A DNA stretch of 64,000 nt from Fimbriimonadia bacterium. Its GTDB lineage: Bacteria; Armatimonadota; Fimbriimonadia; Fimbriimonadales; JABRVX01. The translations under genes and the position numbers were made by a program. Location of the stretch: the NCBI GenBank assembly GCA_039961735.1, contig JABRVX010000005.1:1-64000 (forward strand), in the 5' to 3' direction. Position 1 is the first letter of the stretch. Each line of letters begins with the position of its first letter. Positions 60,651-62,930 of this stretch are shown here, in pieces. A model generated the notes under the pieces. The model searched no databases. It was not told the origin of the DNA and worked only from the letters and a program-made list of their open reading frames with translations.

Positions 60651-61433
60651 TTACTGATGCGCGAACATCGTTACATTGTCGGACAGGCCGACACGCAGGC
60701 GTAGCATTGCCTGCGTGTGGAGTTGGTAAACGCGGCTCTCCGACACACCCAAAACCTTCCCGATTTCCTTGAATGTCAGACCCTCGTAATAGTACAGGGT
60801 TATCACGAGGTGTTCTCTCTCCGGAAGTCGCTCTATGCAGTCGGTGAGCAAACGCCGAATTTCCTTGCCGTGAATTTCCCCTTCCGGGTTGCTGTGTCGG
60901 TCTTCGACAATGTCGGACACCCGCAGCTGGTCTTCCGCCTCGTTGCTGGCCAACACGTCGTCTATGGATGCCAGGGTGGTACGCCCTAGTTGGATGAGGA
61001 GCTGATGATAGTCCTCGAGGGTCATGTTCATGGCCTCCGCCACCTCGACTTCCCGAGGAGGGCGACCCAGCTTCGCCTCGAGATGCATGTGCGTGCGCTC
61101 CAACAACTTCAGTCGCTCGCGGATCGAGCGAGGCACCCAATCCTCGTCTCGTAGCATCTCCAGAATCGCTCCGCGAATGAGCGCGATAGCATAGGTCTCG
61201 AACTTCACCTCGCGGCTACGGTCGAACTGATCGATAGCCTTGATGAGCCCTTGCACGCCGGCTCCCACCAGGTCCTCGCGGTCCAGACCCGGTGGTGGGC
61301 TGCTTACGACCCGACCCGCCGTGATCTTGACCAGGTATTTGTAGTGATCAATGAGTTGTAGGCGGGCATCCAGATCGTTTTCCGTTTTGTACTTTCGCCA
61401 ATACTCCGGAAGCAGTTGCGGTTGAATCGCCAT
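60651..61433 (-). CDS. fliA: flagellar sigma factor FliA (sigma-28)
   Basis: 260 residues. Sigma regions 2 (PPGLDREDLVGAGVQGLIKA, FETYAIALIRGAILEMLRDE), 3 (LGRPPREVEVAEAMNM) and 4 (LPEREHLVITLYYYEGLTFKE then IGKVLGVSESRVYQL) are all present. DWVPRSIRER is diagnostic of the FliA/WhiG family, which transcribes late flagellar genes. No flagellar structural gene lies in the window. It follows a small membrane protein by 16 bases and precedes the disordered ORF. Confidence 0.93.
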   Translation of the reverse strand: MAIQPQLLPEYWRKYKTENDLDARLQLIDHYKYLVKITAGRVVSSPPPGLDREDLVGAGVQGLIKAIDQFDRSREVKFETYAIALIRGAILEMLRDEDWVPRSIRERLKLLERTHMHLEAKLGRPPREVEVAEAMNMTLEDYHQLLIQLGRTTLASIDDVLASNEAEDQLRVSDIVEDRHSNPEGEIHGKEIRRLLTDCIERLPEREHLVITLYYYEGLTFKEIGKVLGVSESRVYQLHTQAMLRLRVGLSDNVTMFAHQ

Positions 61434-61449: not shown

Positions 61450-61650
61450 TCATTCGTTTTTGCCCTTCGACTCGACAGACTCCGTCAGCGGCTTGATCTG
61501 AGCGAAGACGGCCTGCCATATTGTCCCGAGTACCCACCCAACAACGAACGCGATTCCTCCTCGCGTCAAAGCGAACTGCCAGTGCACCTGTGTGAGGGTC
61601 GCGGCAACGAGCGCGACCAGAGCGGCAAGAGAACCTACTAGGAGTGGCAC
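61450..61650 (-). CDS. two-helix small membrane protein upstream of fliA
   Basis: 66 residues. Two membrane helices (LLVGSLAALVALVAATLT and GIAFVVGWVLGTIWQAVF) then a charged tail. The GTG start follows GGAGG by six bases. First gene of the fliA operon, behind the structured leader and consensus promoter. Unknown function. Confidence 0.65.
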   Translation of the reverse strand: MPLLVGSLAALVALVAATLTQVHWQFALTRGGIAFVVGWVLGTIWQAVFAQIKPLTESVESKGKNE

Positions 61651-61835
61651 TGCCTGCCTCCGCGGAAGCGCTCAGCGTGATGCCAGGAAGTTCGGACGCA
61701 GGAGCCCCACCGAGCAGGTTCGTGGCGGAGCTGCGCGGACGGAATGAGCCAAGGAGTGGGAGGATTTTCGAGAGCAACAATGGCAGCCTCTCCTTGCGCC
61801 AAAGGACACCGTCGTGCGGATTGCATCCATGTCTC

Positions 61836-61989
61836 CCCGTAAGTCTAGATTACGGATCCGAGGTCACCCGCCCTGCTGCGGGCTCGGCATGTAGGTCGGC
61901 TTCCAGCCGATGCACTCCCCGCTTCGACGCGCCCTCTTCGTCGCTCTTCCGAGGCGCCGCGCGGAACGAAGGCCCCATAATCTCGGGCC
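61836..61989 (-). ncRNA. structured leader RNA upstream of the fliA operon
   Basis: Minus-strand RNA begun at the promoter 62012-62039 would fold into a series of hairpins within ~170 bases: 61970-61989 (5 bp), 61928-61956 (8 bp, one bulge), 61895-61909 (6 bp, 3-base loop), 61857-61886 (5+5 bp with a 4-base bulge) and 61836-61854 (6 bp). The region has no convincing gene and does not match a riboswitch class I know. A 62-codon frame (61638-61826) with GGGGAG before its ATG begins right after the last hairpin and overlaps the next gene's start, which hints at translational control. It could be a riboswitch, an attenuator or a small RNA. Confidence 0.5.
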
Positions 61990-62011
61990 CCAAACAAATC
62001 GATCGGTGTTC

Positions 62012-62039
62012 ATTATACCGGGAACGGGACCCATGTCAA
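62012..62039 (-). promoter_or_regulatory. full consensus sigma-70 promoter
   Basis: On the minus strand, TTGACA (62039-62034) and TATAAT (62017-62012) match consensus in all twelve bases; the spacer is 16. It drives the structured leader and then the fliA operon. This is the strongest promoter seen in the window. Confidence 0.88.
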
Positions 62040-62069
62040 CCAGTAGTGTAACAGGATTGATTAGTCTGG

Positions 62070-62930
62070 CTAAATTTTCCCTAGCGCCGCTGGCGGACGG
62101 GCGCGCTTCGCAAACACGATCAGCGCGACGATGGTGAGGGCATAAGGCAGGCTGGACCAGAACTCGGAGGGCGCCGTCATCCCGAGGATGGGAACACCCT
62201 GCATTCGCATCTGCAGCGCATCGAATAGCCCGAAGCCTAGAGCGGCCGTGAACGCACCCAGCGGATGCCAGCGTCCTAGCACGAGTGCAGCCAGGGCGAT
62301 GAACCCGCGCCCCGCCGTTACGGCCTCCGAGAACTGGTTGACGTAGGCAAGAGAGAGGAAGCCCCCGCCGAGCCCCGCCAAGACCCCGCTCATCAGCACG
62401 GCTCCGGTTCGGATGCGGACGGGGTGGAGGCCCATCGCCGCCGCTTTGTCAGGATCGTTGCCAACTGCTAGTACGTGCAGGCCCCCTCGGGTCCTGAATA
62501 GCCACAGCCATGCGACGACGGGCAGCGCCAGCGCCACCGCTATGAAAACCCACTGAGACATGGCGGGTACTTCGGGCGTGCTGCCATGCTGCCCAAAAAG
62601 GGGCAAGATTAGAAACGCAGTGCCTCCGAAGGCGATCGCGTTGACCGCGACGCCGCTGACTACGTGATCGATCCGCAGGCGTTGGGTGTTCAGCGCGTGG
62701 AGGGACGAGAGGGCGACGGCCGCTAGTACCCCGGTCAGCAGTCCCAGGATAGGGGAGCCAGTCCGGTCGCTTCCGAGCGCCGCGAAAAACGCACCAAAGA
62801 GCATTAGGCCTTCCAGGCCGATATTGATGACACCCGAACGTTCACAAATCAATCCACCCATCGCCGCGAAGGTGAGTGGTGTCGCTCCGCGGAGGGTCGC
62901 CTCGATGAGTGCACGAATCAGTGCGTCCAT
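62070..62930 (-). CDS. ABC transporter permease (nucleoside/simple-sugar, second subunit)
   Basis: 286 residues from ATG 62930, which overlaps the upstream stop (TGATG). About eight membrane helices. SGVINIGLEGLMLFGAFFAA and LSSLHALNTQRLRIDHVVSG are hallmarks of the BmpA-dependent permease family. RTRGGLHVLAVGNDPDKAAAMG is the coupling loop that meets the ATPase. It works with the next gene and the ATPase to import nucleosides or simple sugars. The substrate-binding protein is outside the window. Confidence 0.92.
   Translation of the reverse strand: MDALIRALIEATLRGATPLTFAAMGGLICERSGVINIGLEGLMLFGAFFAALGSDRTGSPILGLLTGVLAAVALSSLHALNTQRLRIDHVVSGVAVNAIAFGGTAFLILPLFGQHGSTPEVPAMSQWVFIAVALALPVVAWLWLFRTRGGLHVLAVGNDPDKAAAMGLHPVRIRTGAVLMSGVLAGLGGGFLSLAYVNQFSEAVTAGRGFIALAALVLGRWHPLGAFTAALGFGLFDALQMRMQGVPILGMTAPSEFWSSLPYALTIVALIVFAKRARPPAALGKI

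Follow-up and report, generated by a model that had tools for sequence, protein, structure and literature searches.

A consensus sigma-A promoter and a long, probably mostly passive leader upstream of fliA in a Fimbriimonadia bacterium

Introduction

What drives the gene of a flagellar sigma factor when a long gene-free stretch separates it and its small companion gene from the preceding operon, and does the RNA of that stretch take part in its control? This question is raised by a locus in the window (the whole stretch of 64,000 nucleotides analysed here) from an uncultured Armatimonadota bacterium, whose genome comprises 3.24 Mb in 77 contigs. On the minus strand, two ABC transporter permeases are followed by a 419-nt gap, a gene for a 66-amino-acid membrane protein and fliA, and 3' of fliA lie two small ORFs and then a SurA-like protein and MazG (Table 1). 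A first-pass annotation, made from the sequence by a model, proposed that a consensus promoter in this gap starts a heavily structured leader, through which a ligand, a protein or translation could control the expression of fliA. The genomes nearest to the source that could be compared belong to the same order and to other families (113 in the order and 291 in the phylum), and the relatives named below are Fimbriimonadaceae, Fimbriimonadales and other Armatimonadota MAGs.

Table 1. Coordinates of the features of the fliA locus in the window.
Feature	Position	Strand	Basis or remark
ABC transporter permease (BPD_transp_2), farther upstream	63934-62930	minus	family match
ABC transporter permease (BPD_transp_2), upstream neighbour	62070..62930	minus	family match
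Perfect sigma-70/sigma-A promoter, TTGACA-16-TATAAT	62012..62039	minus	12/12 hexamer bases
Predicted 5' leader	61651..62005	minus	start placed from the promoter position
47-codon frame (TTG/ATG starts)	61850..61993	minus	borderline coding score
Six non-overlapping perfect short stem-loops	61837..61989	minus	stem search
Stem-loops 1-3	61989-61971, 61966-61947, 61943-61925	minus	perfect stems
Stem-loops 4-6	61910-61896, 61882-61867, 61855-61837	minus	perfect stems
62-codon frame	61638..61826	minus	overlaps start at 61650
66-aa membrane protein, first conserved gene of the fliA operon	61450..61650	minus	conservation, SD
FliA/WhiG-family sigma factor	60651..61433	minus	NCBIfam model over cut-off

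The operon and its promoter

The two genes to which the leader had been assigned are both well founded. The sigma factor, previously named as FliA-type, belongs to the FliA/WhiG family, scoring above the NCBIfam cut-offs (TIGR02479, 245.9 bits against a cut-off of 189.6; FliA PRK06986, 216 bits against 201), and flagellin genes are present in the source genome. The gene in front of it, put forward as the first well-supported one, starts with a GTG at 61650 and has a Shine-Dalgarno (SD) sequence, GGAGG (61661-61657), 6 nt from this codon, and a coding score of 0.185. Homologues immediately precede fliA in about 45 loci of relatives, and their starts can be aligned. The 66-amino-acid product has two hydrophobic stretches and no Pfam or NCBIfam match. 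Its homologues, of 66-90 amino acids, share the two hydrophobic stretches, followed by a polar tail, and adjoin fliA; such a small membrane protein could be a candidate regulator of FliA.

The proposed promoter was found on the minus strand with all 12 hexamer bases, its -35 box 30 nt after the stop of the upstream permease. Such sites are rare in the genome: seven perfect TTGACA-16-TATAAT sites occur in the 3.24 Mb, where about 0.2 per genome would be expected from base composition and where the reversed control pattern gives none, so the class can be taken as real. In four of the six other cases a plausible gene start lies 20-90 nt downstream, and the class therefore looks functional, while the other two precede long leaders that contain a hairpin, either terminator-like or GC-rich, of a kind not detected in the fliA leader. 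The promoter upstream of the fliA operon is very probably genuine. No FliA-type (sigma-28) site was identified upstream of the gene pair in the window, and those identified in relatives are weak and restricted to a few genomes.

Two perfect promoters elsewhere in the same genome deserve a description of their own. One (L126 1501-1720, contig C17) precedes a homoserine-dehydrogenase-like gene, and its leader combines a GC-rich hairpin with a 27-codon frame in which Met and Thr codons occur several times (MATMRMRHATLDVATPAHILSGAIRRR), an arrangement that may represent a possible attenuator. Downstream of the other (L129 1374-1529, minus strand, contig C45) come a 14-bp terminator-like hairpin, which has a T-rich tail, and then an unidentified gene.

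The upstream region in relatives

In the relatives, the gene pair is often located 3' of a metallo-beta-lactamase-like gene (the name rests on a sequence motif rather than on a family search), the gap before it measures mostly about 100-170 nt and there is no strong sigma-70 site. These short gaps have in common a block, AAAACCTnACaaAA-N5/6-AGnTTTGCCCTAAnGA (also given as AAAACCTnAC-N-AGnTTTGCCCTAAnGA), usually with a CCAGTATTAACAGTG-like sequence about 15 nt after AGnTTTGCCCTAAnGA; in the relatives' loci (L052-L121) it precedes the small gene of the pair by approximately 35-140 nt. By leave-one-out scoring, the block exceeds 99% of shuffles in 36 of the 42 non-redundant loci, which is an upper estimate, since the starting motif came from the same data and the shuffles keep base composition only. 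Across the order, a strict form of the pattern has 30 matches, about half of which are the block at the fliA locus, roughly one per genome; the remaining matches are chance-like, and a reversed control pattern yields a similar total. Within the limits of a strict pattern, the block thus seems to belong to the fliA locus and not to a regulon. RNAalifold predicted no pairs in the block, which therefore looks like DNA, a putative promoter or operator for a sigma factor or a regulator. When it was tested as a promoter for FliA, the recognisable matches fell mostly at the fliA locus itself, and no classical sigma-28 match was present at the flagellin loci of the source genome.

The block is absent from the window and from the rest of the source genome, and the window scores at background, although a version diverged beyond detection could be present. 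In G003, the relative whose FliA is the closest (63%), the end of a glycogen-synthase-like gene and the small gene overlap, and upstream control consequently varies within the order.

Because the gene-close block of the relatives is missing here, the long leader is most likely explained by promoter replacement, and we consider turnover to a strong sigma-A promoter, whose long 5' leader is mostly passive, the best and a reasonably probable reading. The small membrane protein and fliA would be transcribed as one operon from the sigma-A promoter approximately 355 nt upstream, just after the transporter operon; the leader would act mostly as a passive GC-rich spacer with ordinary hairpins, the first gene would be translated from its own SD (GGAGG-6-GTG), and the operon's promoter would have been replaced in the source lineage with loss of the relatives' block. 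Observed directly are the promoter match with its rarity, the conservation of the first gene, the lack of detectable conservation in the leader and the missing block; where transcription starts, that the leader is passive and that the promoter was replaced are steps that we infer.

Hairpins and folding of the leader

Judging by the promoter position, transcription should start near 62005 and give about 355 nt of RNA up to the GTG, in keeping with the roughly 350 bases first suggested. The hairpins described in this leader are present, including the nested 5+5 bp stems, where an outer 5-bp stem (CCGAG/CTCGG) encloses stem 61882-61867. When a stem must be perfect, have 5 bp or more and close a loop no longer than 10, a 180-nt segment, chosen by a reader looking for hairpins, contains six non-overlapping stems against a mean of 1.27 in dinucleotide shuffles, none of 3000 shuffles reaching six, and this is the highest count among the 1064 segments of the window. 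With loops limited to at most 8, there are three stems versus 1.0 in shuffles (p 0.06), and with a stem minimum of 4 bp the excess over shuffles disappears.

Folding energy gives a different picture of the same RNA. The 180 nt of leader fold with a z of +0.39 relative to shuffles and the 360-nt whole leader with a z of +1.3, no sub-window being below -1.1, and local folding over spans of 20-60 nt gives z values from -0.4 to -1.1; folding more stable than composition predicts was not found at any base-pair span tested. The description of the leader as heavily structured is therefore appropriate for the number of small perfect dyads, but not for stability, the energy being at shuffle level. No terminator-like site was detected in 61640-62110, and the SD of the first gene lies outside the hairpin region, so that neither a terminator nor local sequestration of the SD would provide an expression platform. 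Covariance models of Rfam 15, run with gathering and permissive thresholds, returned chance matches far below threshold. Folding and the Rfam search had both been recommended in the first-pass annotation, whose impression that the leader carries none of the known motifs of a riboswitch, 6S or SRP RNA agrees with the lack of any Rfam family.

Leader DNA has no homologue in the 113 genomes of the order and no match in plasmids and phages, and a covariance model built on the single sequence recovered in those 113 genomes only the leader itself (best other E 0.18). The comparison of the regions upstream of fliA, proposed for the detection of covariation, thus gave no homologous leader in the order or the phylum. 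A single 38-nt match among the 291 phylum genomes (L187) is located inside a phage-like coding gene and was rejected as chance. At order and phylum distance, missing conservation does not prove that a function is absent, since all compared genomes lie outside the family of the source.

These results bear on the possibility that the fliA operon is controlled by a structured leader particular to the lineage, either riboswitch-like or bound by a protein. An unusual number of perfect stem-loops directly after a perfect promoter, the length of the gene-free stretch and the nested stem speak for such a leader; shuffle-level energy at every span tested, a stem excess that becomes weak or is lost when the limits on stems and loops are changed, the lack of an Rfam match or of a sequence-plus-structure match in the order, the missing terminator and the position of the SD speak against it. 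The stem excess keeps this regulatory reading alive, and we regard it as tentative and unlikely. Control by a ligand, a protein or translation, as originally advanced, did not find support in the energy, in terminators, in the coding score of the 62-codon frame or in homologues. That the six-hairpin array is a new leader RNA element, which took over control of the operon when the relatives' block was lost, we consider doubtful, at the improbable end of the scale. For the mostly passive leader that we favour, the top stem count is a point against, as it could mean that some structure has been selected.

Short frames in the leader

None of the frames in the leader has a clear coding score. The promoter could instead drive a separate short transcript, either a small RNA or an mRNA for the 47-codon frame, ending before the operon, in which case transcription of fliA would come from the transporter operon upstream or from a weaker promoter. 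Perfect promoters often drive abundant RNAs, and the 47-codon frame has a score of 0.142, close to the 95th percentile for non-coding frames; this is one borderline value and is not surprising, because several frames were scored. The 47-codon peptide has only chance-level matches in the genomes of the order and no homologue, no RNA family was found, and a transcript ending before the operon would have to do so where there is no terminator-like site, so that we judge this explanation decidedly unlikely.

The sequence GGGGAG (61838-61833) and the 62-codon frame overlapping the next start are both present as described, but translational coupling, in which this frame would be a translated upstream ORF controlling the first gene by its overlap, is highly improbable: although GGGGAG stands 6 nt before its ATG, its score per codon (-0.24) equals the mean of wrong frames (-0.24; real genes average +0.31), a closed frame of at least 62 codons appears in 50% of shuffles, its peptide has only chance-level matches and no homologue in the genomes of the order, and the first gene comes with an SD of its own. 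An attenuator with a leader peptide likewise finds no translated-looking frame by codon score and no terminator in the leader. A 135-codon plus-strand frame across the gap was considered as a gene and rejected for its non-coding score.

Comparison with known systems

As a strong promoter of the ordinary kind followed by a long leader, the locus is of interest chiefly for annotation. Beyond that, the comparison suggests that regulation of the flagellar sigma factor has been rewired within one Armatimonadota order, since most relatives keep the block next to the gene pair, whereas the source genome has a distant perfect promoter. Two questions follow: which factor binds the relatives' block, and does the small membrane protein have an effect on FliA?

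The Clostridioides difficile flgB operon, which includes a flagellar sigma factor gene, is preceded by a long leader with a c-di-GMP riboswitch. The locus described here resembles it in that a flagellar sigma factor operon follows a long leader, and differs from it in that the leader has neither a c-di-GMP riboswitch nor another Rfam family, no terminator and no conservation. The Fimbriimonadia block of the relatives stands upstream of the same pair of small membrane protein and fliA; unlike the leader, it is gene-close and DNA-like, with no consensus RNA structure, and it is absent from the window. The promoter itself agrees with the consensus sigma-70/sigma-A promoter, with both hexamers perfect and a spacing of 16 nt, one below the optimum of 17, and with a start that is predicted here.
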